Origin: a virus
DNA length: 26,708 bases
IMG/VR virus record: IMGVR_UViG_3300000117_000194
Coordinates: 1-26,708 of that record
Strand: one strand, 5' to 3'
Part shown: positions 1 through 25,714 of the stretch, piece by piece
How positions within the stretch are numbered: the first letter of the stretch is position 1
How the letters are laid out: every line of letters begins with the position of its first letter
Made by a program: the position numbers and the translations under genes
Notes under the pieces: model-generated
Databases searched by the model: none
What the model was told of the DNA's origin: nothing
What the model saw: the letters and a program-made list of their open reading frames with translations, nothing else

Positions 1-3000
1 GTTCTGCGGCTTGTTCTTCTTGAACGGTCCGTACTTCGCCTTCCACCTCTTGTATATCTCCGGCTTGTTTATCATCAGGTACTGCTCTTGTTTCTTGCTC
101 TTGAATGGCATCTTCTTCAAATCTTTTGTTTATACTTCTTCTTGTTTCCTCATCGTTCTCAATAACAATATCCGAAGCCAATATCTGTGCATCGGACATA
201 TCATTTATCTTACTTAAAAAATTTTTTCTTTTAAGTTTTTTACCGTTAATTATATACTTAGCTCTTACGTTCTCTCGTATATCAGCGTCTATATCAGGTC
301 GACCCATAACGGTTCCTATCTCATCTAAGGCAACCTGTTCGGATGGCTTACGTACTATCTTGGTTTCTGCAAGCTCTTTCAGCTCTGCATTAATTTCTTT
401 TATCTTGTCACCAAATATTTCTTTTCTGTTTGTGGTTGAACTCAGCTCATCCTTAGCAGCCATAAGCTGCATTGCTCTATTTAATACATACCCGGATGTT
501 TTACCTTCTGTAGCTGACAATACGTTCTGTGCATTTTGTCTAACACCAAGGTTACTTTGTATTCTTTGGTTTGTCTTCTTGCTTATCTGTCCAAGCTCTT
601 CCATACTGTTAGCCCAATTACTAACTCGTGATGGCGTTGAGCCGAAAGCTCCTTTTAGTTCATTATTTAATCCCTCTATAGTTGCAAGGCTGTTTGCTAT
701 ATCAAGATTGTTTTTACTCCTCAAGTCTAGAGCCATATTTACAGCAGCAAAAGAGCTATTTGCACCTAGACCACCTATCATCTCAGCAAAAACATCCTTC
801 ATATTTATGCCTCTATCATATGATACCTGTGCTAAGTATTCTCCAACACCCTCAGATAAAGGGTCAAATAAAATTCTTTCTGTTGCTTGAGCCGCTAATC
901 TTCTTCCTATACCTGCAGTTTTTCCTACATTAAAAACTCTACCCGCCATACGTGCAGCGAAAATGTCTGTTAATAAAATAGGTATACCTCTTTTAAATCC
1001 TTCTTCGTTTCCATCTTTCCATACCTGAGGGTCATTAAATGCTTGCTCGACCTCTTCAGGAACCATAGGCTTGTAATTGTTTTTTACTATAGCATTCATA
1101 ATAGCATTGGTATATTCTAAACCAAAAGTTGTTGCCATAAATCCTGTACGGAAACCTTGAAATAAACCTGCGATACCTCCGGGTATAGTACCTACAGGAC
1201 CTGCAATAGCGGTTCCATAAGCTGCTCCTGTTGCAGTTCCTATCGCTGTTGCAGCGGGTATAAGATACTTACCATAAGGAAGCATCTGAGATAAACTTTC
1301 TCCTGCAAACTGAAGAGCCATGTCCGCAGGACTATCAGAAAATGAATCCCATATCTCTCTAAAGCCTTTAGCTCTATGGTATCTGTTAAGCTCTTGACTA
1401 GTCTTACCGGTATTCATGTCCTCCATATAGTCCACGTACTCGTTAGCAAGTTCTTTTGTAGTCTTGCCTGTAAGACCAAGACTCTTCTGTAATATTACAG
1501 CACCCATTTCACCTCTAGCTTCTCCTATATCCATAGAGTTGGTAACTCCTGCCCAACCTTCTACTATTTCACCACGTAAGTTTTTATCAAACTTAGAGTC
1601 TAAATATGTTTTTGAGACCTCATATTTGTCTGCAGCCACTTGAGATAATTTTTTAGATGCTTCATATGTTGTGAGTATGGCATCCTGCATCTCAGCTTCT
1701 CTAGTGGTTTTAGGTTCATACTTAGCAAGCTCCTGTAAACTTAATCCAAAGTTTTGATATGAAGATGTGTTCAGCTCATTGTCTACATATGTTGCTGCAG
1801 CATTAGTCTTTACTGCTTCGCCTCTTATATCCTGTAGCTGTTTATCTATAAACACATCATACTCATCACGCACCTGCTGAATGTCATCATCAAGATACAG
1901 GTCTGTAAGTTCATCGTATCTTTTGTTATATTCCTTATATAGGTCTAAGTAATCTGCTCTTAGCTTACCTTCCTTAGTATAGAACTCACTAAACTCTTCC
2001 TGTTCGTAGGGACTTAACTCACTAATATCAAAACCTCTTTGGTCTTTTGAACCACGCTTTAGGCTTTCAATAAAAAGAACCTTATCTCTTGCATCCTCGT
2101 ATTCGTCTACTTGATTTTTTATTGACAGATAATCATATCCTTTGTCTGCAAAAAAACGGTCTGCTTCTGCATCAACATTTGATATATCTTTCCAAGAACC
2201 TCTAGCAAACTCATCTGCTTCTTCTGCGGTTTTAAAATAAAAAAGTTCTCCTCTTTTTTTTGCTTCTTCAAATGCTTCCATACCATCAAGCTCCATCCAA
2301 TACATTGGCTTGTTTGATTTTATTTCAGGATTCTTTTGAAATAAGGTAGGATATGCTACGTTTTTACCGTCAATGTTTGCTGACTCAAACAGGACAGTTG
2401 ATTCTGTACCGTCATCATTTATACGTGGTACGTCTCTAAGATATTTAGCACGAATAGCAGATTGCACTGAGTTTGTCTCTATTTTTTCTACTTTTTCTTC
2501 AGGTTTATATGCGTACTTTGTTACAAAATTTTTGAGTTTTTCTGCTTCTACTAGAGCGTTGCTATCAAACCAAGTATCTAGGTCTATAGTTTCCCTAACT
2601 ACGTTGCCATCAGATAGCGTTTGAGTAACCTCCATTGCATCTCCAACACCAACGGGTCTGAACGTAAATCCATACCTCCCATATAAATCGTTAAAGTATT
2701 CAACAGCTTTATCTTCTTCTGTTTGAATTGATGCTAAGTCTGTTTTGTTTAACGCTTCATTAAAATCAGGGTCTTGAATAATCTCTTCTCTTCCTTCTAC
2801 TGCAGTGTTTATTGCAGCTTGACGTTCAGCTTTTTCTTGTGCCTGAAGTTTATTTAGTTCAGGTTGTTCTAGCTCAACCATAAAAGATGTAAATGCTTGG
2901 TCAGCTGCTATTTGATTTTTTCTGTCTTTATCTTCAATGTCTGAAGGTATTTGAAACCTAAAATCTGAAACACCTCCCACCCCTGTAGTTGGCTGTGGCG

Positions 3001-3448
3001 GAGCTTCAGGTGGCAGATAGCCTGTCTCCCTCATATCACGAGGTTCAAACCCATATAGCTCTTTGAATTGTTTTTTAGCTGCGTCTATTTTAACCTGACG
3101 CTCATCCTGAAGTGCAGCAGGACTTATATCATACTCAATGATATCCTGTGATAAAGCCGAAGAAGTATCGCTTTCCTGAGGCTCCTGTGTAGGAGATACC
3201 GTACCTTCCATCGGCTCCCCATCGAGTTGCGAATCTTTTTTTTTTATGGTTACATCGTTCAAGAAACTTTCAATAGGATACCCAACTTTAAATGCTTGGT
3301 CTAGTCCACCTAATGTATTATATATCTCTGCAGCATATTTACTATCCTGCATATCACTTATAAAACCCTCCAAAGAATAACCATCAGTGAAGCTAGGGTC
3401 TAGAGATGAGATTTGACCGTATAATGTTTGTAAGTATTCTTCTTCCAT
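1..3448 (-). CDS. Large internal virion (ejection) protein candidate, 3' end cut by the window edge
   Basis: The reading frame is open from an ATG at 3448 to the left edge, at least 1149 codons with no stop seen. The ATG directly follows the TAA of the upstream gene. The first ~700 residues are hydrophilic, charged and mostly helical-looking, with a low-complexity acidic/Ser/Thr stretch near residues 70-95. Residues ~722-773 form a Gly/Ala-rich hydrophobic segment (GTATGAAYGTAIAGPVGT inside it), like a glycine-zipper membrane segment. The residues nearest the edge are rich in Glu, Gln and Asp. It is the last of three co-directional genes after the tail genes and far larger than its neighbours, the position held by large internal or ejected virion proteins in podoviruses (compare T7 gp14-gp15-gp16). 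No enzymatic domain was recognised; one may lie beyond the edge. The CDS is certain, the role is inferred. Confidence 0.75.
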   Translation of the reverse strand, partial: MEEEYLQTLYGQISSLDPSFTDGYSLEGFISDMQDSKYAAEIYNTLGGLDQAFKVGYPIESFLNDVTIKKKDSQLDGEPMEGTVSPTQEPQESDTSSALSQDIIEYDISPAALQDERQVKIDAAKKQFKELYGFEPRDMRETGYLPPEAPPQPTTGVGGVSDFRFQIPSDIEDKDRKNQIAADQAFTSFMVELEQPELNKLQAQEKAERQAAINTAVEGREEIIQDPDFNEALNKTDLASIQTEEDKAVEYFNDLYGRYGFTFRPVGVGDAMEVTQTLSDGNVVRETIDLDTWFDSNALVEAEKLKNFVTKYAYKPEEKVEKIETNSVQSAIRAKYLRDVPRINDDGTESTVLFESANIDGKNVAYPTLFQKNPEIKSNKPMYWMELDGMEAFEEAKKRGELFYFKTAEEADEFARGSWKDISNVDAEADRFFADKGYDYLSIKNQVDEYEDARDKVLFIESLKRGSKDQRGFDISELSPYEQEEFSEFYTKEGKLRADYLDLYKEYNKRYDELTDLYLDDDIQQVRDEYDVFIDKQLQDIRGEAVKTNAAATYVDNELNTSSYQNFGLSLQELAKYEPKTTREAEMQDAILTTYEASKKLSQVAADKYEVSKTYLDSKFDKNLRGEIVEGWAGVTNSMDIGEARGEMGAVILQKSLGLTGKTTKELANEYVDYMEDMNTGKTSQELNRYHRAKGFREIWDSFSDSPADMALQFAGESLSQMLPYGKYLIPAATAIGTATGAAYGTAIAGPVGTIPGGIAGLFQGFRTGFMATTFGLEYTNAIMNAIVKNNYKPMVPEEVEQAFNDPQVWKDGNEEGFKRGIPILLTDIFAARMAGRVFNVGKTAGIGRRLAAQATERILFDPLSEGVGEYLAQVSYDRGINMKDVFAEMIGGLGANSSFAAVNMALDLRSKNNLDIANSLATIEGLNNELKGAFGSTPSRVSNWANSMEELGQISKKTNQRIQSNLGVRQNAQNVLSATEGKTSGYVLNRAMQLMAAKDELSSTTNRKEIFGDKIKEINAELKELAETKIVRKPSEQVALDEIGTVMGRPDIDADIRENVRAKYIINGKKLKRKNFLSKINDMSDAQILASDIVIENDEETRRSINKRFEEDAIQEQETRAVPDDKQAGDIQEVEGEVRTVQEEQAAE

Positions 3449-5389
3449 TTATTCTTCTTTTTTACCCCCTGAAGGTCCTTTTTGAAATTTTATATTAGTT
3501 TGTTGAGCTGCCGCCTTAAATGCATCTGCTTCTGACTGAAGACCTTTTCTATAAATCTGTTTGTCTTTATCTGACATGTTGTTAGAAAATCTCAATATTC
3601 CTTTTTCTATTCCTGCTTTTTCTATTAACTCAAGTTTTGATGCCGCATCTGTTGGGTCACTTAAATCCATTTCAAACTTACTTTGGAACTTCTCATTCTT
3701 ACCTAGAGTTACATTTACTTTTTGATTATTAAGTTCAACAGTAATGTCTCCGGGTTCGATACCCTCGATATTTGCTAGTTGCTCCTGAAGAAGATTTTTT
3801 AATTTTTTTCTTTCTTCAAGAGTTGTATTTGATTTTAATAATGGAACAATAACATCATTGTTAAATGCCACTTCGTTTTTAACAGTAAACGCTTCAGGGA
3901 AGGATAACTCTCTTGCTTTTGCAATACCTCTAGATGGTTTAAATCGTATAGTGTTAACTTTTTCGCCTAGCATGTCCTGATACTTAGAACGTTTTAATAT
4001 ATCATCAACGTTCTGTATTTTTTGACCTTCAGATAAAACAAAGTTTACTCCTTGTTTTATGAATCTTGATAGGTCAGTTCCGTATGATAATGGTTCATCG
4101 TTTTTACCTGATGCATCTGTATATCTAATTATAATACCATCAGCTGTTGGCTCAATAGCTTCTATATCTTTGTTGAGTGCACGTAAATTATTTGCTGCTT
4201 CAAATTTTGCAGCGGCATCCCCATAAAATAATTGTCCAAAATTATTTAGTGCATCATTTTGATTTTTGTTTCGGTCACCAATCGCAACCTCAGTTGGAGT
4301 AATAGCTCGTGATTGAGGAGTAAACCCTGCTCCTGTTGTTTGTCTCTTAACATCAATGTTAGCACGTATAGCAAGTTTTAGTTCTTCTTCTACTTTTTCT
4401 TTTTGTCCTTCCTTAAATACAGGAGTCCCTGCAGGATTTTCTGAACGGTCCAAATAAATTAATGAACCTGTTTTGTCTGCATCAAATTCTTTTTTATCAA
4501 ATGTAAACGTATACTTATCACCTGCTTCGGTCTGTAGTACCTTGTCTGTTAATACAGAAGCAATATCGTTTCCATTACGCATCATTGCTGATACTTGAGT
4601 TTTTTCCCACTCCTTATATGTAGCTGCAAACTTTTCTCCTTCTAAACCAAAGTCGTGCTGCTTAGCGTCAATCATTGTTATTATGGTATTAAGCTGTCTG
4701 CTACCTCCAATCTGAACAGCACTCTGCTCTAAAGCTCCTAGTTGTTCTGCTGCTTTGGATGCACTACCATTCAAATCAAACCTATCATACTTCTGCTTAA
4801 GTCTTTGTCTTAACTCATTTACTGTAGCAAAATCAGTTGGTTTCTTGCTCATCTCCATTACCCCGGTCTTAGGGTTTTTAACCATCCTACCTATACTTAC
4901 AACACCATTAGTGGGATTAAGGTATCCTTTTACTTGTCTAAGATTAGCAAGACCTTCTACTGTTTCAGCTTCCCACATCTCACGATAAGAAGACTCATCT
5001 CCTTCCCAACGCTTCATTTTCTCCGTGTATTCTTTCTGATACTCTTCAGCTAGTCCAAATAAATTTGTAGTTCCATCAATAGCATTTTGCCTTCCTATTG
5101 TGTAGTCCTTTACTTTAAGCTGACCGCTTTTTAAAAGACGGTCCTGCATTAGTCTAAACTCCTGAGCGTTTCCTGCAAACTCTAATGCAAATGTATTGCC
5201 CGCATCATAGTCACCTGTAGGAGCGTTTGCTAACTCTTCTCCATATTCTCTTGTAGCCTTATCAATAGCAGCTTTTTTATCCTCACGGAGTTGAACCTCC
5301 TCCTTGAGCATATCGGACATATTCTTTCCAATCTCTGCCCAATTTATTTGCGTATCTGCCGAACGTTCTGCGTACCTAAAGTAACTCAT
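3449..5389 (-). CDS. Probable internal virion protein, 646 aa
   Basis: The protein is long, soluble and mixed-charge. Its N-terminus (MSYFRYAER, then NWAEIGKNMSDML) resembles a protein I recall from flavobacterial and uncultured marine phages, always among virion genes. Residues ~1-150 look helical (AAIDKATREYGEEL; QEFRLMQDRLLKSGQ), the middle is mixed, and the C-terminus is short, basic and Gly-rich (KGPSGGKKEE). There is no signal peptide, membrane segment or catalytic motif. The start ATG overlaps the upstream stop as TAATG, and the next gene begins immediately after its stop, so the three genes 6363-1 are probably translationally coupled. Size and position match the middle protein of a podoviral internal-core trio. 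The alternative is an unrelated tail-associated structural protein. The CDS is certain; ejection by this protein is inferred. Confidence 0.7.
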   Translation of the reverse strand: MSYFRYAERSADTQINWAEIGKNMSDMLKEEVQLREDKKAAIDKATREYGEELANAPTGDYDAGNTFALEFAGNAQEFRLMQDRLLKSGQLKVKDYTIGRQNAIDGTTNLFGLAEEYQKEYTEKMKRWEGDESSYREMWEAETVEGLANLRQVKGYLNPTNGVVSIGRMVKNPKTGVMEMSKKPTDFATVNELRQRLKQKYDRFDLNGSASKAAEQLGALEQSAVQIGGSRQLNTIITMIDAKQHDFGLEGEKFAATYKEWEKTQVSAMMRNGNDIASVLTDKVLQTEAGDKYTFTFDKKEFDADKTGSLIYLDRSENPAGTPVFKEGQKEKVEEELKLAIRANIDVKRQTTGAGFTPQSRAITPTEVAIGDRNKNQNDALNNFGQLFYGDAAAKFEAANNLRALNKDIEAIEPTADGIIIRYTDASGKNDEPLSYGTDLSRFIKQGVNFVLSEGQKIQNVDDILKRSKYQDMLGEKVNTIRFKPSRGIAKARELSFPEAFTVKNEVAFNNDVIVPLLKSNTTLEERKKLKNLLQEQLANIEGIEPGDITVELNNQKVNVTLGKNEKFQSKFEMDLSDPTDAASKLELIEKAGIEKGILRFSNNMSDKDKQIYRKGLQSEADAFKAAAQQTNIKFQKGPSGGKKEE

Positions 5390-6363
5390 TATTTAAATGG
5401 CGTTATTAATTTTCTATCAAATGCAGGGTTGGTTGCCAACTCACTAGTAGAGGTAGGATTAAATCCTAGAAGGTCTATTAACTCTTGAGACACATCTTGA
5501 TTCAAATTTGTTGATTCAAAAAGATTCATTCCTACTCCGGGTATAATATTATTTGCATCCATTATAAGACTTGTGTCAACCATTTTATCAAAACGTTCCA
5601 CATTTTGCGTGTAATCTCTTAGGTCTTTTAATTGGTCAATAGTAAACCTATCCTCATCTGTTATAAAATCTTGAAACTGTAGTGCTGACATATCACCTAA
5701 TCCTGAGGTGTCTACACCACCAAACATTCCTCGTTCTGCTAACTGCTCTTGTAACTGAGGGTTTCTTTTGAGAGCTTGCTTAGCTAATCTAGCTGCTTTT
5801 GTTTTCTGATATAAAGGAACAAAAGATGCCGCTGCTCCTAGCGATGCAGTAACTCCTTCGAAACCTTCTTTCATTGATTTTTGTTTCATCTCTGCTGCTT
5901 CTCTTGCTTTTAGCTGAGCACCTGCAGCTTCCTCCATCATAACGCCTACTTTTAGGTCTCTTAGTCTTGAATCTTCTGCTGCTATTAATTTATCTAAACC
6001 AAACTTTCTCTCTTCCATTTTTGCTGCTTGGTTTTCTAATAGAGCTTGATTTGCCATCACTGTTCTACCTGCTGTTGCTGCAGCACTTCTTGGGTCAGCT
6101 TCACCTGCTGCTTCCATTGCAGTTTTATAAGCCTGTCCTGCTCTTCTAGCTAAATTTTGGTCTGCAAGTTTTGGCAAACCTAAACCTTCATATACGTTTA
6201 CGTCAAGCTCTTTATATATTTGTGATACTTTAGTAGCCGCTTCTTGATTAGCTCTTTCCATTTCACGTTTAGCTTCAGCCATCTGAGAAAAAGACATTCC
6301 TGTTGTCGCTAAAGTATTAACTACCTGAGCACCCGCTGCAAATGCTGCAAATCCTACTGCCAT
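5389..6363 (-). CDS. Probable internal virion protein, 324 aa, Ala-rich helical
   Basis: The first ~25 residues are Ala/Gly-rich and moderately hydrophobic (GFAAFAAGAQVVNTLATTG). A long predicted helical region follows (~25-170) rich in Ala, Glu, Lys and Met, with heptad-like stretches (SQMAEAKREMERANQEAATK). A second mildly hydrophobic Gly/Ala segment lies near residues 165-185, and the tail is less regular. This composition is typical of small internal core proteins of podoviruses (the T7 gp14 type) that enter the host envelope during DNA ejection; that is a resemblance in character, not a demonstrated homology. A TATCTTTG promoter box ends 41 nt upstream, so this gene appears to start its own unit with the two larger genes behind it. 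Its stop overlaps the next start as TAATG. Confidence 0.7.
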   Translation of the reverse strand: MAVGFAAFAAGAQVVNTLATTGMSFSQMAEAKREMERANQEAATKVSQIYKELDVNVYEGLGLPKLADQNLARRAGQAYKTAMEAAGEADPRSAAATAGRTVMANQALLENQAAKMEERKFGLDKLIAAEDSRLRDLKVGVMMEEAAGAQLKAREAAEMKQKSMKEGFEGVTASLGAAASFVPLYQKTKAARLAKQALKRNPQLQEQLAERGMFGGVDTSGLGDMSALQFQDFITDEDRFTIDQLKDLRDYTQNVERFDKMVDTSLIMDANNIIPGVGMNLFESTNLNQDVSQELIDLLGFNPTSTSELATNPAFDRKLITPFK

Positions 6364-6404
6364 ATTATTAAGTATTTTTGGTTAATGATAAAAATGTATT
6401 TCCA

Positions 6405-6412
6405 CAAAGATA
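6405..6412 (-). promoter_or_regulatory. Bacteroidetes-type -7 promoter box (TATCTTTG)
   Basis: The minus strand reads TATCTTTG, an exact match to the Bacteroidetes -7 consensus TAnnTTTG. It lies in the 55-nt gap between the 272-aa and 324-aa genes, 41 nt before the ATG at 6363. No clear -33 TTG was seen at the usual spacing. It would give the internal virion proteins their own transcript. Confidence 0.6.
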
Positions 6413-6418
6413 CTAAAA

Positions 6419-7237
6419 TTAGGGAAATGATTTCATTACCTCTGCTTCTACTGCAAATAATTCTGATGCAGTTTGAGATTTTCCTATTGGTAATTCTAAA
6501 ACAAACTCACAGTAATGACCTAATACTCCGTGAGATTCTGCTATTGGGTTCTTAATATATAAGAAATAAGCATCCTGAATTGGTATAGGATTAGTAGCTC
6601 CCGGCACTGCAGTTGAATCAATTACAATTTGATTAATACCATTTACTTTATCTACATTTATCTGAGTAATAACACCCGCAAAAATAGGCGTGGTATAAGG
6701 AGGTAGTGCATAATACAAATAATCACCCACACTTACTATACTTCCTATGTTTACTGACAAAGCAAAGTCTACTTCATATGAGGCTGCTGCACCACCAACA
6801 GCAGAACTTTTTGAGATACCATTCAATGAACGTAGCTCAAACTCAGCTTCTGTTACGTTAGCTCCTGTGGTTCCATCGTTCCTTACAAAAGCAAACCAAG
6901 CATCTTCTTTTTTCTCAAACCAAGCATCATCAATATATCCTGTTGTCTGAATGTCTGTAGTTAGATATGCTTCCCAAGAATCATCAGCCTCAAGATTTAG
7001 AGTTTTAAATAATTTATTTGTTAAAGGCTCTTGATTAAATACACTAGTTAAAGTAGCAGCATAGTCAACTCCATAAAAATTACAGTGCGTATCATTTGTA
7101 TTATGACTATATATATTACCACCCTTAAAGGTGTAAAAAAACTGATTCATTCCTATCATATAATCAGGAAAGAATGAATAAAAAGAAGGGAATCCTTTTG
7201 ATGATTCGCTATATGTTAGTGTATAATTTGTTGCCAT
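6419..7237 (-). CDS. Tail/stabilisation-type structural protein module, 272 aa
   Basis: The N-terminal ~70 residues carry the pattern KGFPSFYSFFPDYMIGMN - FFYTFKGGNIYSHNTND - NFYG. I recall this pattern near the C-terminus of large beta-propeller tail proteins in crAss-like and marine phages, where it reads roughly GW-SF-SF-P - FYTFK-G-LY-H - N-FYG. Residues ~150-245 look like a small beta domain (NIGSIVSVGDYLYYALPPYT). No signal peptide or membrane segment is present. The gene follows a 304-aa Cys-rich gene by 3 nt and ends the tail operon. Its probable role is a distal tail (muzzle or nozzle-like) component associated with the 1548-aa protein two genes upstream; the module may have separated from that protein. 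Confidence 0.7.
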   Translation of the reverse strand: MATNYTLTYSESSKGFPSFYSFFPDYMIGMNQFFYTFKGGNIYSHNTNDTHCNFYGVDYAATLTSVFNQEPLTNKLFKTLNLEADDSWEAYLTTDIQTTGYIDDAWFEKKEDAWFAFVRNDGTTGANVTEAEFELRSLNGISKSSAVGGAAASYEVDFALSVNIGSIVSVGDYLYYALPPYTTPIFAGVITQINVDKVNGINQIVIDSTAVPGATNPIPIQDAYFLYIKNPIAESHGVLGHYCEFVLELPIGKSQTASELFAVEAEVMKSFP

Positions 7238-8167: not shown

Positions 8168-11100
8168 TTAACAAGTACAACAAGCATCTTCTATTGTTGC
8201 TCCAAAACATAATTCATCTTCAGTTGATAATCTATAGTCCCAAATCAAATACAAATAAGCTCCTGTATTCGGCATTGTAAATGTAGCAGAGTATCTATCG
8301 GGTGCATCCGTACTGTCTATTGCAGGTACTCCACCATCGGGGTCAATTAGTATTTCTGCTAACAGTAACTTTATATCTGCAATAGTATTATAATATCTTG
8401 TGTTGGTTCTCAGATATCTAAAGTTATTAGGTGTCGGAGGAGTAGGAAGAGGTGAAATCACACCTTCGCTAAATACAAAGTCATCATAATTTATCTTATT
8501 ACATATCATACTGACAGTAGCTGAATCAGCAGGAATAACTCCTGCTCCTTGAAGCCCTGTTATTTGGTCATAATCAGATATCACAAACTCAGTTGTATTG
8601 TCATTGTCGAAAGAAACTAATCGTGAATGTAATGGCGATACAAACGTGCCGTCAGTCCAACTATATTCGCTATGTATGTACTCACCATTGATTGCATCGC
8701 TTGTAATAGATATAGGTATAATAGTAATAGTCTCTGCTTCAGGACAACCAACCGTAATACCTCGTATGTAGCTTTTGTTTGTTGAAGAATTTTCAACTAC
8801 CAAAGTAACCTTTTGGTCAGCAACAGAACTCTTCTGAATAGTTATTGTATCGCTAATAGGAGTGGTTGCACTAAAATATGTATTAGTAACCCCTGCATAT
8901 GTATAGTCTATCCTAAATGAATTATTCCCTGAAACTGATGAGTCTATATCTATATCTATAGTCACATCTCCAACTAAGTCTCCTACGTCAACGCAGAAAT
9001 CATAAGAGTTGGCTACGTCCACAACAATATTACCCACTATTATTCCGCAATCTATGCAGTCTGTAACTACAGGCTTTGGTGTATTGTTTGAACTAAGTAC
9101 GTACTCATTCATATAGGGGTCGAACCCACCTAACTTTTGAGTTTCAAATGAATCTATGAATAGGTCTCTAAACCAACTACGCATACCCTGCTCTGATATA
9201 ACATTTAGTTGTTCGTTTTGAGCTGAACTACCTTTTAATTGTAATACCGCACCACGTTTTGCATCTGTAAAGTATTTGTCTTTACCCCACTGAATAAAAC
9301 TTTCAGGATGGTTAGATATACCGTAGTCCTCTACACGAGCAATTTGTTTCCCTAGTACCTCAGGCACTGATGTTAACGCAGTTCCTGCTCCTGCATCTGA
9401 TAATAAATTTTTACCTTGAAGTACATACGATATTTTATCTTCTTGCAGTGTAAGGATATCTGTTTCTCTACCTGACAATATTTGTATTGGACCGAACGTA
9501 CGTTCAAGTGGTTTAAAGTTAAGAAGACCTAAATTAAATTCATTTAGTTTATTTATATTACTCTCTTCGTTATATACACCACTGTATGTTAGGTCAGCAA
9601 AACGATGTGCTTCTTTATATTCTTGTTCACTTGTAGTAAGAACTCTGTTACCTAAGTTAAATGACTTGCCAACAATAGAGTCTCTTATTTTGTAACTCTC
9701 AGCTCCATTACCAAATGCATAGCAGTTCATGAAATCTGTATCAACTACAGCGGAATCAACATTTGTTTGGTCTTGAGAATTACCTTTATGTCTACCGGGA
9801 TACTCATCTAATGTAACAGGGTCTACATAAGTATAAGTCTCATACGTATCAGCAGATTCATACCACACATCGGGCAAAGCATCCTGTGGCTCTGATTCAA
9901 ATATAACAACACCATCAGCCCTATATACATCAATGGTAGCAATAGCAACAGAACGTTGTCCTGCTTTTATGCCGTCTTGAACTGTACCGTTCATGTTTAA
10001 ATAGCTAGGTATAGTAGTTCCATTTCCCTCTGTATACCAAAATATGTTTTGGTCTTCTGAAGGCTGTATAGGCTGAATGCCTGCAGCGACAGCAGTTGGA
10101 TAAAAAAAGTTTGAATTATTTTCTCCTTCAAACGAAGCCCTATTTAAAAATCCTTGAAAGTTTTCCCCTACAAGAAATTCAAACATATTGTCGTAATCTC
10201 TTGATGCTTGCATAAATACAGACAAGAACATTGTTCTTTTTTTAGTATTTCCTTTTCCTGTTCTGTAAAAGTTTAGATTTACACCTACTCTAGAACCAAA
10301 AGGCACAGTGTAATCAACGTAATTACCCGCTCCATCCAACACAGACATTGGATAAGTTATAAGAGGATATGGTCCCGGTGGATTAGCACTAGGGTAGTCA
10401 ACTATAAATCCATATTGTGTATCATTACCAAATTCAGCTCTTTGTAGCCCATATAATACACTAGCATTCTCTTGCTCAGTTATGCTTAGTTGATTTGTGC
10501 CTACTTTCATATAAGCACCTACTAAACTTCCTGTTTCAATTTCATTTTCTGCGTATACTTTCTTTTCTAATACAGTAACATAAACACAGCTTGTTGTTGG
10601 TCCTGAAGAATCTTTTTTAACAATGAGTCTATCTCCAACCTCAATTTTTTGAGAGTTCTCTCCTTCTAAAAAAAAGTATGCATAGTTAGCATCAGCAGTT
10701 CTGTAGTATATACTACTATATATAACGTCATAATTTTCTTCATCAGGCTTTATAACAAACTTATAGTGCGTTGCCCATTCAGGTGCTATTTGTCTTGGCG
10801 GTATATCTACCTGTATATAGTTTCTGTTTTTAGATGAGCTACAAGGAATATGTAAAGAGTTGTTGTTGCTAACAAGTGCGGTGCTTGAACGACCAAAGTC
10901 ATCCATATAAACTATACCTGTTTCATATCCTCTATTACTGTGAAGGCTTCCTATGCTAGGGCTTGTTCTAATAGTAGCACTTGCAAATGTTACATCATAA
11001 AATTCATATATATCTTCGGTTATGTCCGTACCAACAGTTACATCATTTACAAAACGCATATAAGGTAACTTAAAGATTATAACGTCTTCTAGTAATCCGG

Positions 11101-12814
11101 TTCTAAATGCTATAATATCTATCGGCTCATTTTGTTGATACCCTGTAACACCAACAAGGTCTGCACCGCTTACAGCACTAGCGTATTTTGTTACAGAGCC
11201 GCTTGTAGTGGCAGAAGGCAAGGTGTTAGGTATAGCACAATTAAAAGTATCTGTAAATGTTATTCCATCACAGCTTGTAGGGTCAGGAAGAGGTGCGTAT
11301 ACGGGGTTAATGTTTTTTGGACTAATGCTTCCTACTTTATTTACAAATTCATTACTTGTTGCTAACTCATATACACTATTGTAATTGTTATTTAAAGTAA
11401 TAGAAAAAGAAATATCTATTTCCCCTGTTTCCGATGTTGGCTGAGGGTTACCTGAAGGAGCAAAAATAGCGTGTTTAAATGATATGTCAAATGTTAATGT
11501 GTTCCCGGCTTTAAAATCTTTTACAAAACTTCCTATATTAATAGTTGCTGAACCATCTGTTGGGTCGCTAATACCCCTAGATGGTATAGTGTAGGTAGTA
11601 GCAAGCTCACTTCCCTCTACTTCATTTTCACTTATATCATCAGCTACTAACTCAACAGTATATTCTATTTGAGATGTAGCTCCTTTGTAGTCAATTAAAT
11701 CATATCCATCTATATAGTTTCCATACACAAGCCTATTGCCCATTATAGTCTGAGCCAAAGCAAATCTAGGTACATTATCATATAGTCTTAATATTTCAGA
11801 ATCACGAAGTACGGTAAATATATTACTATTAGTAAACGTGTATGTTTCTGTTGAGTTGTCTGAAAGTCCTCTATCTTTTTTATTGAATTTATCAATTACT
11901 TTTATTTCACTATTGTCACCTTCCTTAAATAACAAATCAATACTCTTAACTAGAGGACCTCCTGTATTATAAGACACTAATGCTGAATTGTAGAGGTTTG
12001 TCATACCCTCATTCAAATTACTGTTTGGGTTAAAATCAAAATCTTTGGGAATAAATGCAGGTTCAGAAAAAGGAGATGTCGCAGAGTATTCTCCATCATC
12101 ATATCTGTATCTATACGCAAAAGAAATAAATCTATCTTCTAAGTAGTTATCTTCTGCAGAGGGAACTTCTTGAAGAGTAACCTCAGGAGAAAAAAGGGGT
12201 GGTCTTTTTATAACTAATAATTTTTCTTGCAACACCAATGGCTCGTTGTCAAAGTCCACTATTCTAGGTGCAGATAATACAGGATTAGCATAACCTTTTC
12301 TTACATTTATAAATCTAGGTGGGTTTAGGTTGTCTGTAAAAAACAATAAGTCTTCTACTAAATCTACTCCTGTTATTAAATATTTTAAATCAAAGTTTAA
12401 TGTTGTGTTTACATCACCACCATCATTCACGCTTATAACGTGGTAGTCAACTATATTATCATTAACATTATATGATACTATCAAGTCTATTTTCCCTGTT
12501 GGAAATAATGATGTAGGTAACCCGGCACCATCTCTAGCAAAGTATGGGTCGTGAACAAACCAATATATTGTTTCGTTAGCTCCATCCTCAAATGCACCAA
12601 TACATCTAGCCTGTGAGCTTAAGTTCTCATTGTTGTACTGAAGAGTAGTAAGCTGTGTATTACCCTTTGTAGTTTCAACTGAGCCAACTTCACTAGCTTC
12701 CGTAGAACCTAATCTAACATTAAGTGCATCTACGTACTCACCATTAGGAACGAGTCTCTCATCAAGACTCTTATTCATTCTACCTAAAACAAAATTTCTT
12801 TGTGTATTCGCCAT
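8168..12814 (-). CDS. Large beta-propeller-type tail stabilisation protein, 1548 aa
   Basis: The N-terminus (residues ~8-56: LGRMNKSLDERLVPNGEYVD, then NVRLGSTEASEVGSVE, KGN) is the signature of the long tail-stabilisation or tail-needle-proximal proteins of crAss-like and related marine phages. A second familiar segment, MGNRLVYGNYIDGYD, lies near residue 356. A third, around residues 1100-1215, runs FGPIQILSGRETDILTLQED - YGISNHPESFIQWG - KYFTDAKRGAVLQL - GMRSWFRD and is propeller-blade-like. Residues ~1251-1358 begin CIDCG and contain FCVDVGDLVGDVTIDIDI, a beta-sandwich-like module. The C-terminus ends in a Cys cluster (EDACCTC). The ATG lies 1 nt after the stop of the connector gene. Its role is probably to close the portal channel and build the short tail, as P22 gp10-type proteins do; that comparison rests on family knowledge and context. 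Confidence 0.85.
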   Translation of the reverse strand: MANTQRNFVLGRMNKSLDERLVPNGEYVDALNVRLGSTEASEVGSVETTKGNTQLTTLQYNNENLSSQARCIGAFEDGANETIYWFVHDPYFARDGAGLPTSLFPTGKIDLIVSYNVNDNIVDYHVISVNDGGDVNTTLNFDLKYLITGVDLVEDLLFFTDNLNPPRFINVRKGYANPVLSAPRIVDFDNEPLVLQEKLLVIKRPPLFSPEVTLQEVPSAEDNYLEDRFISFAYRYRYDDGEYSATSPFSEPAFIPKDFDFNPNSNLNEGMTNLYNSALVSYNTGGPLVKSIDLLFKEGDNSEIKVIDKFNKKDRGLSDNSTETYTFTNSNIFTVLRDSEILRLYDNVPRFALAQTIMGNRLVYGNYIDGYDLIDYKGATSQIEYTVELVADDISENEVEGSELATTYTIPSRGISDPTDGSATINIGSFVKDFKAGNTLTFDISFKHAIFAPSGNPQPTSETGEIDISFSITLNNNYNSVYELATSNEFVNKVGSISPKNINPVYAPLPDPTSCDGITFTDTFNCAIPNTLPSATTSGSVTKYASAVSGADLVGVTGYQQNEPIDIIAFRTGLLEDVIIFKLPYMRFVNDVTVGTDITEDIYEFYDVTFASATIRTSPSIGSLHSNRGYETGIVYMDDFGRSSTALVSNNNSLHIPCSSSKNRNYIQVDIPPRQIAPEWATHYKFVIKPDEENYDVIYSSIYYRTADANYAYFFLEGENSQKIEVGDRLIVKKDSSGPTTSCVYVTVLEKKVYAENEIETGSLVGAYMKVGTNQLSITEQENASVLYGLQRAEFGNDTQYGFIVDYPSANPPGPYPLITYPMSVLDGAGNYVDYTVPFGSRVGVNLNFYRTGKGNTKKRTMFLSVFMQASRDYDNMFEFLVGENFQGFLNRASFEGENNSNFFYPTAVAAGIQPIQPSEDQNIFWYTEGNGTTIPSYLNMNGTVQDGIKAGQRSVAIATIDVYRADGVVIFESEPQDALPDVWYESADTYETYTYVDPVTLDEYPGRHKGNSQDQTNVDSAVVDTDFMNCYAFGNGAESYKIRDSIVGKSFNLGNRVLTTSEQEYKEAHRFADLTYSGVYNEESNINKLNEFNLGLLNFKPLERTFGPIQILSGRETDILTLQEDKISYVLQGKNLLSDAGAGTALTSVPEVLGKQIARVEDYGISNHPESFIQWGKDKYFTDAKRGAVLQLKGSSAQNEQLNVISEQGMRSWFRDLFIDSFETQKLGGFDPYMNEYVLSSNNTPKPVVTDCIDCGIIVGNIVVDVANSYDFCVDVGDLVGDVTIDIDIDSSVSGNNSFRIDYTYAGVTNTYFSATTPISDTITIQKSSVADQKVTLVVENSSTNKSYIRGITVGCPEAETITIIPISITSDAINGEYIHSEYSWTDGTFVSPLHSRLVSFDNDNTTEFVISDYDQITGLQGAGVIPADSATVSMICNKINYDDFVFSEGVISPLPTPPTPNNFRYLRTNTRYYNTIADIKLLLAEILIDPDGGVPAIDSTDAPDRYSATFTMPNTGAYLYLIWDYRLSTEDELCFGATIEDACCTC

Positions 12815-22905: not shown

Positions 22906-23161
22906 ATCCCTGTTTAGTATCTATCTTATTATTAGGTAAAGTTTCTTCTAAAGATTCTTTTTCTTCTTCAATTCTTTTAAGTATTTCAAATGCATCGAAT
23001 ATAGCTAGCTTCTTTGTAGCTGCAGCATTCTTTAACCTATCGGCAGCAAGGTCATCTTCCGGGTCGGGCTTTATTATTTTTTCTTTTGCAACTTTAATAA
23101 GCTGTTCCACCGCTTGATGACCCGCCTCTATTATTTTTAACTTAATTTCTTTATTGCTCAT
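22883..23161 (-). CDS. Candidate terminase small subunit, 92 aa
   Basis: The protein is small and mostly helical: EIKLKIIEAGHQAVEQLIKV, then ADRLKNAAATKKLAIFDAFE and EILKRIEEEKESLEE, ending with a basic tail (FAERRSK). It lies directly before the large terminase and overlaps it by 23 nt; its own ATG overlaps the co-chaperonin stop by 4 nt. Position, size and helical character fit a small terminase that recognises the packaging site, and I recall similar proteins beside terL in flavobacterial phages. No clear helix-turn-helix was identified, so a terminase accessory protein of another kind is possible. Confidence 0.6.
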   Translation of the reverse strand: MSNKEIKLKIIEAGHQAVEQLIKVAKEKIIKPDPEDDLAADRLKNAAATKKLAIFDAFEILKRIEEEKESLEETLPNNKIDTKQGFAERRSK

Positions 23162-23721
23162 ACGACTAAAGTTATTGAGTGGTCATACATCCTGTAAATA
23201 GTTTCACCATCTACATTGAATTTATATTCTTGGTTTGGTTTATAACAAACAGTATCACCTGCTTCTACACCTTTATTTTTTAATCCTTCATTTATAATTA
23301 CCATCTCTCCCATCAGTGGTTCTTTTGTAAAAGGTTTAAATATATAGCTGTCGGTTACAGGAACAGGTTTAATAAAACAATATCTATCGTACCCGTGCCA
23401 CTTGCCATCTTTTTTATAAGCAAAGAATTGGTCAGGGTCTAAGAAAAAAATATTATCTTTCAAAAAACTTTTACCACTCTTACGCCTTCCTTTCATATCA
23501 TTATAGAACTTGAAGACATTGTGATGAACTAATAGCGTGTCACCTTTTTCAATAGGTCCACAGTAATTTAAAGGGGTTTCAATAACAATAGCTTCTCTAT
23601 TAGATGTAGACACATCCTCTTCCGATGTGCTAGTTATAAAGTCAATACCCCCTATGTTTTTGATGTTGTCGTATCTCCTTTTATTTTTAGGTTCTACAAT
23701 AAATTGATAAATAGATTTCAT
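23158..23721 (-). CDS. Phage co-chaperonin candidate with two GroES-like domains, 187 aa
   Basis: The last ~35 residues, AGDTVCYKPN then EYKFN and VDGETIYRMYDHSITLVV, follow the GroES C-terminal pattern (VGDxVLFxKYxGxEVxxDGEEYxIxxxxDILAV). The N-terminal half repeats the plan: IVEP (8-11), EAIVIETP (43-50), KGDTLLVHHN (59-68), then IFFLDPDQFFAY (91-102). The second copy begins near YCFIKPV (114-120). The protein therefore looks like two tandem GroES beta-barrels, longer than cellular GroES (about 95 aa) or T4 gp31 (111 aa). The stretch ~18-42 of the first copy could serve as the mobile loop that contacts GroEL. Its place upstream of the terminase, portal and capsid genes suggests it redirects host GroEL to fold head proteins, as T4 gp31 does for its capsid protein. 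This is homology by pattern only. Confidence 0.6.
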   Translation of the reverse strand: MKSIYQFIVEPKNKRRYDNIKNIGGIDFITSTSEEDVSTSNREAIVIETPLNYCGPIEKGDTLLVHHNVFKFYNDMKGRRKSGKSFLKDNIFFLDPDQFFAYKKDGKWHGYDRYCFIKPVPVTDSYIFKPFTKEPLMGEMVIINEGLKNKGVEAGDTVCYKPNQEYKFNVDGETIYRMYDHSITLVV

Positions 23722-24655: not shown

Positions 24656-25714
24656 TTATGCTAATAATATTTTTTGTGATACTCCATTAATTACTACGTT
24701 CCAAACTTTAGAACTTGTATTTGTTTCTGTTGCTACAGCTCCTGAGTTATAGGTTGAAGAACCAACTACAAACTGATTATCTGCTGTTGCCTCTGCTTCT
24801 CTACCTAATAGTACAGAGTGACTAAAGTTACCTGTATTAATATTGTAACCTAGTCCACAATTACCGTTTGCATCTTCTGTTCCATATTCTTCTCCTCCAA
24901 TCATAACATTGTAAGCACCTGTTGTAAGCTCATATAAAGCACCCATTCCAACTCCAACATTATAATTTCCTCCACCTGCATTAAACAATGCTTCAGCTCC
25001 TACTACTGTATTACCTGTACCTTGTCCATCACCCATTGCACTATATCCAACTGAAGTATTTGAATTACCTGTTGCATTAAAACCCTGTGAATAATGTCCC
25101 ACAGCTACGTTTTGTGAACCACTAGTAACTACAAGTAAAGAATCTTTACCTACAGCTACATTTTGTGTTGCAGTTGAGTTATAAACAGATTTATGTGATT
25201 GAGCACCTACGGCAGTATTCTCTCCTCCATTCCAAGCATCATTACCTGAACGGTATCCAATATATGTATTATCAGATGTTCTTGAATTATATCCTGCAAT
25301 AGAACCAACTCCTGTATTTCTATCACCATTAGTAAAAAGAAAAGAAATAAGACCAACAGCAACATTGTCAGTACCTGATGTCAGTTCTTTTAATGCTGAT
25401 GTTCCTATTGCTGTATTACTACTAGCATCAATACTTTCCAATAATGCATTAGAACCTACAGCAACATTAAAGCTTCCTGTACTACTATCTTCCAATGCTA
25501 AATAACCTATTGCTACATTGTCTGTTCCTGTAGTATTGTTTTTAAAAGCATCTAATCCATAAACTGTATTGTTTGTGGTTGGTCCTGCACTCTCAGCAAT
25601 ATCTGCCATTGTGAAAAATGCTGCTCTTGCATTTGTTTGAGATGAGCCTAATTGTTCTACAGTTACACCTGTGGTGTCAGCTCTAAACTGTGCGTTACTT
25701 GGTACGGTTGCCAT
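24656..25714 (-). CDS. YadA-like beta-roll fibre / receptor-binding candidate, 352 aa
   Basis: From about residue 49 to 318 the protein consists of about 16 degenerate repeats of 14-25 residues, each ending N-x-[VTI]-[AGV]-[VI]-G: NVAIG, NVAVG, NTAIG, NTGVG, NTYIG, NTAVG, NTSVG, NTVVG, NVGVG, NVMIG and others. This is the pattern of the left-handed beta-roll head of trimeric autotransporter adhesins (YadA/Hia head, Hep_Hag) and of several phage fibres. The first 45 residues (NAQFRADTTGVTVEQLGSSQ) are likely the attachment region. The C-terminus (NTSSKVWNVVINGVSQKILL) is short; no S74 endosialidase-type chaperone domain follows. It probably forms a trimeric fibre or tip that touches the host surface. 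It is followed at 1 nt and 3 nt by two small genes that may help its folding or attachment. Confidence 0.8.
   Translation of the reverse strand: MATVPSNAQFRADTTGVTVEQLGSSQTNARAAFFTMADIAESAGPTTNNTVYGLDAFKNNTTGTDNVAIGYLALEDSSTGSFNVAVGSNALLESIDASSNTAIGTSALKELTSGTDNVAVGLISFLFTNGDRNTGVGSIAGYNSRTSDNTYIGYRSGNDAWNGGENTAVGAQSHKSVYNSTATQNVAVGKDSLLVVTSGSQNVAVGHYSQGFNATGNSNTSVGYSAMGDGQGTGNTVVGAEALFNAGGGNYNVGVGMGALYELTTGAYNVMIGGEEYGTEDANGNCGLGYNINTGNFSHSVLLGREAEATADNQFVVGSSTYNSGAVATETNTSSKVWNVVINGVSQKILLA

Follow-up and report, generated by a model that had tools for sequence, protein, structure and literature searches.

S-M-G, a small-medium-giant gene cassette directly behind phage tail genes, is probably an ejection-protein operon with a polyvalent-type cargo

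What do three touching genes at the end of a phage tail module encode, and where do their products act? The question is raised by the window analysed here, the whole 26,708-base stretch of IMG/VR virus record IMGVR_UViG_3300000117_000194, in which a small, a medium and a giant gene (S, M and G) follow the tail genes. A preliminary description had taken them for an internal-core cassette, possibly an independent solution for a DNA ejection channel across the envelope. We read S-M-G as a podophage ejection-protein (cargo) operon whose giant is a cargo of the polyvalent type (probability about 0.8). What is new here is the polyvalent-type giant behind a conserved glycine zipper, together with a module common to M and G; the ejection operon itself is known and widely shared.

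Layout of the cassette and affiliation of the phage

The minus strand of the window carries terminase, portal, major capsid, ring and tail genes, and then S (324 aa, 5389-6363), M (646 aa, 3449-5389) and the first 1149 aa of G (2-3448), which is open at the window edge. S and M share one base (TAATG) and M abuts G; the coordinates, sizes and touching ends given in the preliminary description were all exact. The tail module includes a 1548-aa protein in the muzzle position (8168-12814, minus strand; phrog_14478, 3.7e-206) and ends, immediately ahead of S, with a 272-aa protein bearing the C-terminal domain of the crAss muzzle (6419-7237, minus strand; PF25729, 61 bits with a cut-off of 27). In the window this domain is a separate protein, apart from the muzzle-position protein; in the related locus L013 it makes up the C-terminal part of a longer protein with 465 aa (compare phrog_38031 with its 460 positions). 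Elsewhere in the window, a GroES-like co-chaperonin (23158-23721; phrog_13932) adjoins the terminase, and the relative from Manatee Spring encodes GroEL too. A 352-aa protein at 24656-25714 has repeated NTAIG/NVAVG-type motifs, matches tail spike PHROGs and looks like a trimeric repeat fibre.

The preliminary description had looked to sequence left of the window for the remainder of G. The L002 contig, 97% identical, supplies part of it: the frame continues stop-free to 1801 aa, where this contig ends as well, short of the gene end. Complete giants of relatives measure 1963-3859 aa.

The terminase (TerL) and portal proteins match 87 phage records, led by the uncultured Manatee Spring phage MW202828 (75-77%), with Flavobacterium elemo phages at about 46%, followed by Cellulophaga, Tenacibaculum and Maribacter phages. 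A published structure comparison grouped Pachyviridae and Pervagoviridae near Crassvirales (PMC9855967). The window phage is most likely a podovirus related to Pervagoviridae, Pachyviridae and Elemovirus, with a distant link to the crassviruses. As to the host, genome contigs offer only two members of metagenome-assembled genomes (MAGs), whose names are uninformative or doubtful. Contigs L076 (JAAGZR010000546.1) and L075 (NHEP01000160.1) belong to the same phage group and are binned in bacterial MAGs, one named Aliivibrio; they are probably mis-binned phage sequence.

The cassette is conserved well beyond the window. S, M and G measure 302, 644 and 3859 aa in the Manatee phage, 202, 450 and 3694 aa in elemoA, 200, 549 and 1691 aa in phi38:1, and 227, 508 and 1871 aa in phi19:3, each time after the muzzle-position gene; in Gundel_1 (225, 511 and 2482 aa) they stand ahead of TerL. 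The same order occurs in phi40:1 and phi18:3. A scan of IMG/VR with the M alignment recovered 54 loci, in nearly all of which S lies directly upstream of M, and G lies directly downstream wherever the contig continues.

Virion proteins of relatives and parallels with known ejection operons

S was described beforehand as Ala-rich and helical, and it is: 15% of its residues are Ala, and it is predicted to be helical almost throughout. Its first 22 residues (6298-6363, minus strand) form a hydrophobic, Ala/Gly-rich N-terminus that is kept in S homologues; T7 gp14 has a hydrophobic N-terminus too, a likeness of kind that does not imply homology. To avoid circular matches, the S profile was built without the distant groups (phi38:1, elemo, phi19:3, Gundel_1), and it finds phi38:1 gp99 (E 1e-8), elemo gp23 (8e-8), phi19:3 gp126 (1.2e-7) and the Gundel_1 protein (6.5e-7). 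The S proteins of phi38:1 and phi40:1 are 100% identical over 185 aa. By these profile matches, S has virion-protein homologues in three or more known groups of flavobacterial phages, among them gp99 of phi40:1. The AF2 model of S (pLDDT 68.6, pTM 0.29) gave middling PDB matches, which we left out as evidence.

In phi40:1 and phi18:3, all three proteins of the cassette are annotated from experimental virion MS/MS, which agrees with the virion location foreseen in the preliminary description. The cassettes of phi40:1 and phi38:1 (Pervagoviridae), phi18:3 and phi19:3 (Pachyviridae) and Elemovirus share order, place and size pattern with the window, and their S proteins are homologous by profile. 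Nevertheless, the window clade differs from these flavobacterial cassettes in the sequences of M and G. Neither protein has detectable sequence similarity to its counterpart in phi40:1 and phi18:3, so the MS evidence transfers by homology for S only. M shows no sequence similarity to the gp100-type proteins of flavobacterial podoviruses (hhalign under 1%) and is linked to these cassettes solely by a structure match: in BFVD, the first named protein that its model matches is the 511-aa one at the syntenic place in Gundel_1 (prob 0.94, E 4.7e-3). The AF2 model of M (pLDDT 76.2, pTM 0.42) has only middling PDB matches; a helical match over 60 residues to the PhiM1 ejectosome was weak (Z 5.1) and was left out as evidence. 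The G of the window, in turn, has a different N-terminal class.

A positional parallel is crAss001, in which gp45 (C1), gp46 (C2) and gp47 occupy the same place, directly downstream of the muzzle, as two smaller proteins and then a giant. These three are cargo proteins and have been detected in the virion; cryo-EM showed parts of gp45 within the capsid and the tail, and the authors expect gp45 and gp46 to form a channel (PMC10172136). A membrane helix of glycine-zipper type is predicted in C1, but this protein is 842 aa long, against 324 aa for S, and comparisons of S or M with C1 or C2 gave hhalign probabilities of 1.6% and below. The zipper of G also aligned with the C1 membrane helix (53%, E 0.004; hhalign 36.7%), over about 30 Gly/Ala-rich residues; we regard that match as compositional. 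Together with the MS data of the relatives, the shared position with the crAss001 cargo genes supports the internal, ejected cassette of the preliminary description.

MS in the relatives establishes presence in the virion, not position within the head, and cannot separate inside from outside; moreover, S-M-G directly follow the muzzle genes. Both points would fit S, M and G as external, baseplate-like tail parts attached to the muzzle instead of ejected cargo. We consider this quite improbable, because the crAss001 proteins from the same position are cargo, the conserved zipper and helical S suit ejection proteins, and the ADP-ribosyltransferase (ART), GNAT, ParB and zinc peptidase domains found in relatives' giants make sense in the cytoplasm. 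Furthermore, neither S nor M nor the giants gave a receptor-binding or lyase match in Pfam- and PHROG-type searches.

In podophages, an ejection operon of a small, a medium and a giant gene is the standard arrangement (T7/P22 review, PMC8954989; N4, PMC12633501). The preliminary description had likened the order to T7 gp14-gp15-gp16 while seeing no sequence similarity, and both statements hold. T7 has the same gene order, with a membrane-type segment in the large protein as in G; S, M and the zipper have no significant profile match to gp14, gp15 or gp16. Pfam matched no transglycosylase domain in 29 giants of relatives or in the 1149 aa of G in the window, and the complete giants of relatives are about 1.5-3 times larger than the large T7 protein. 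The N4 set gp52-gp51-gp50 (Schitoviridae; 150, 644 and 3500 aa) is a closer size parallel to S-M-G (324, 646 and probably about 3000 aa) than T7 is. Its giant is a multi-domain ejected protein, as G is here taken to be, and an association of the N4 giant's N-terminus with the medium protein has been proposed; no sequence similarity to the solved N4 proteins was seen. For S and M, comparison with the T7, N4 and crAss ejection proteins gave no sequence or clear fold match. The suggestion of an independent solution nonetheless falls away, since S has homologues among the virion proteins of known phages, the cassette is syntenic with theirs, and such operons are standard. By analogy, S would be a small helical ejection protein with a role like that of gp14 or gp52, M a medium ejection protein serving as a portal-side or periplasmic tunnel, and G a giant ejection or cargo protein.

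The N4 giant is an RNA polymerase. The N4 set shares size class and gene order with S-M-G, and the crassviruses have a virion RNA polymerase beside the corresponding place; G might thus be mainly such an enzyme (as N4 gp50 or crAss gp50), with S and M as its delivery channel. This is highly improbable. Searches with a profile built from 16 giants and with the complete giant of the Manatee phage (3859 aa) turned up no solved RNA polymerase, which sets the giants apart from both N4 and crAss001, and neither Pfam nor PHROG returned an RNA polymerase. A DxDxD string at residue 1052 of the window's G has surroundings that give no polymerase support. We rejected a polymerase in G on these profile, Pfam and PHROG negatives from the relatives' giants, and the polymerase domain that the preliminary description had listed as a candidate for the rest of G did not appear in them.

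A common module, a glycine zipper and the payload of relatives' giants

M and G share a module. Residues 492-633 of M (3491-3916, minus strand) hold a C-terminal module of about 100 residues, predicted as alpha-beta-beta-beta-alpha-alpha with pLDDT about 90, and a copy of it lies near the N-terminus of G at residues 229-331 (2456-2764, minus strand; hhalign 98.0%, E 1.6e-13). The M profile finds the window's G at 2.1e-7, and the G profile recovers the C-termini of M proteins with per-domain values down to 6e-12; the C-terminal 100 or so residues of M and residues 229-331 of G are homologous by these profile comparisons. Among all ORFs of the loci, the module is confined to M proteins and giants. 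Similarity of M to G inside phi38:1, elemo and Gundel is weak and coil-like, and we do not claim it. For N4, an association of the giant's N-terminal domain with the medium protein has been proposed (PMC12633501), which makes docking of M to G the natural reading; by this analogy, M would dock to G, probably through the common module. Beyond the module, a 77-aa segment of G (residues 344-420, window 2189-2419) shares 43% identity with gp26 of the Schitoviridae phage Littlefix (NC_048697), which is 147 aa long and is encoded next to N4 gp68/gp69-like genes.

The Gly/Ala-rich segment that the preliminary description placed at about residues 722-773 of G has proved real. It forms a glycine-zipper hairpin (1130-1285, minus strand; GxxxG pairs 737/741 and 757/761) inside a domain, residues 692-961 (566-1375, minus strand), that is conserved in 23 relatives. 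The segment packs six GxxxG motifs into a 52-aa window, which was matched by one of 2000 whole-protein shuffles, and the enrichment persists when the segment itself is shuffled (p = 0.002). Among the 23 diverged relatives, the zipper glycines are kept at G737 in 21, G741 in 22, G757 in 20 and G761 in 21, and S718, E778, R820, G821, D828, G869, E870 and E889 are invariant around them. The zipper is therefore not a chance pattern. It is only moderately hydrophobic on the Kyte-Doolittle scale, with no 19-aa window reaching 1.5, and its insertion into a membrane is possible. In other giants of this phage group the N-terminal domain is a different one, with distant similarity to that of elemo, phi38:1, phi19:3 and Gundel_1 (hhalign 80%, E 1e-5); the anchor region thus exists in more than one version.

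What follows the zipper was read in the giants of relatives, as the window's G is known only to residue 1149. The preliminary description had named protease and transglycosylase as further candidate domains. The first was found at the level of a motif: HExxH, typical of metallopeptidases, occurs in 20 of 36 relatives' giants, where shuffling leads one to expect 0.1, and the Pfam matches include SprT-like beside ART-PolyVal, LPD23, ParB_N, GNAT and RNase_T. The second was not, as Pfam gave no transglycosylase match in 29 relatives' giants or in the window's 1149 aa, and the cassette yielded no cell-wall hydrolase. ART-PolyVal scores above the Pfam cut-off in L030 and L033 and more weakly in L002, L013 and L015; in L002, the contig 97% identical to the window, the ART-like segment reaches 23.4 bits, below the cut-off of 31.2. 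Where giants have the zipper domain, their HExxH and ART motifs are situated on its C-terminal side. The ART-like segments of L002 (13784-14470), L015 (9896-10558) and L013 (10013-10666) are far more alike than the rest of these diverged giants, which suggests a recent domain exchange. A PDB search with the ART segment gave no significant match.

ART-PolyVal, metallopeptidase motifs, LPD23 and ParB in long polypeptides, as in these giants, are features of polyvalent proteins, a category that also takes in the virion RNA polymerase of N4 (PMC5512222). The difference here is that the payload sits behind the conserved zipper domain of an ejection-operon giant. A search of the available literature found no paper joining crassvirus-type cargo with polyvalent proteins. 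With multi-domain, polyvalent-type giants in the relatives and enzymatic motifs after the zipper, it is unlikely that G serves solely as a channel. A milder alternative would have G mainly as a structural inner-membrane channel in the manner of T7 gp16, its enzyme domains acting only within the virion or on G itself, by self-cleavage. The zipper domain conserved in 23 giants fits such a protein, and self-processing has been proposed for the MPTase domains of polyvalent proteins (PMC5512222). We think this unlikely on balance, as varied and swappable non-peptidase domains (ART, GNAT, ParB) would be unexpected in a purely structural protein.

For a cargo operon with a polyvalent-type giant, we infer a delivery route by analogy with T7, N4 and crAss001. 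S, M and G would be packed within the virion near the portal and would exit through the muzzle ahead of the DNA. S, helical and with its hydrophobic N-terminus, would leave first and line an outer-membrane pore, and M would build a periplasmic tunnel. G would follow, its N-terminal part docking to M, probably via the common module, and its zipper hairpin would enter the inner membrane. The part C-terminal to the zipper would then reach the cytoplasm as a multi-enzyme payload, which in the relatives would comprise ADP-ribosyltransferase, zinc metallopeptidase, acetyltransferase and ParB-type domains. The zinc peptidase may cut the payload free, the enzymes being either released or displayed in the cytoplasm.

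It is tempting to speculate further that M and G are coupled like a threaded train, the tunnel protein pulling the giant by the module that both contain, with the zipper hairpin as an inner-membrane stop that divides the conserved channel portion from a payload of enzymes that can be exchanged. We offer this tentatively; if it held, the phage group would be a modular natural protein-delivery device. The cargo reading puts the large proteins of a widespread Bacteroidota podovirus group in a testable frame, that of a conserved anchor and a swappable payload delivered before the DNA. If it is correct, the C-terminal half of a single gene would reveal the early takeover enzymes of these phages. 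The module of M and G would then also be a handle on the loading and ordering of ejection proteins, a long-open question in podophages.

The gap ahead of the cassette

The 55-base gap ahead of S (6364-6418) holds TATCTTTG at 6405-6412, 49 nt before the S start. It is part of TTAGTATCTTTG (6405-6416, minus strand), a promoter element of Bacteroidota type that matches TAnnTTTG, the known -7 element of Bacteroidota. On the sense strand of the window, six of 24 matches to TAnnTTTG fall within 620 bp of intergenic DNA (p = 1.5e-5). A scan for sigma70-type promoters stayed at or below shuffle level, and terminator-like matches lie mostly on the plus strand. The separate promoter of the preliminary description is plausible in the subclade of the window, where TTAGTATCTTTG is conserved in L002, L017, L019 and L060. 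It is not general: most other relatives are without the gap and have another ORF directly abutting S, so a separate promoter would be a subclade feature.

The region between muzzle and S is highly variable among relatives, and in L013 (294-5659) it contains three glycosyltransferase-like genes. A small ORF stands directly ahead of S in most loci and is absent from the window; in MW202828, this ORF is a 137-aa acetyltransferase by name.
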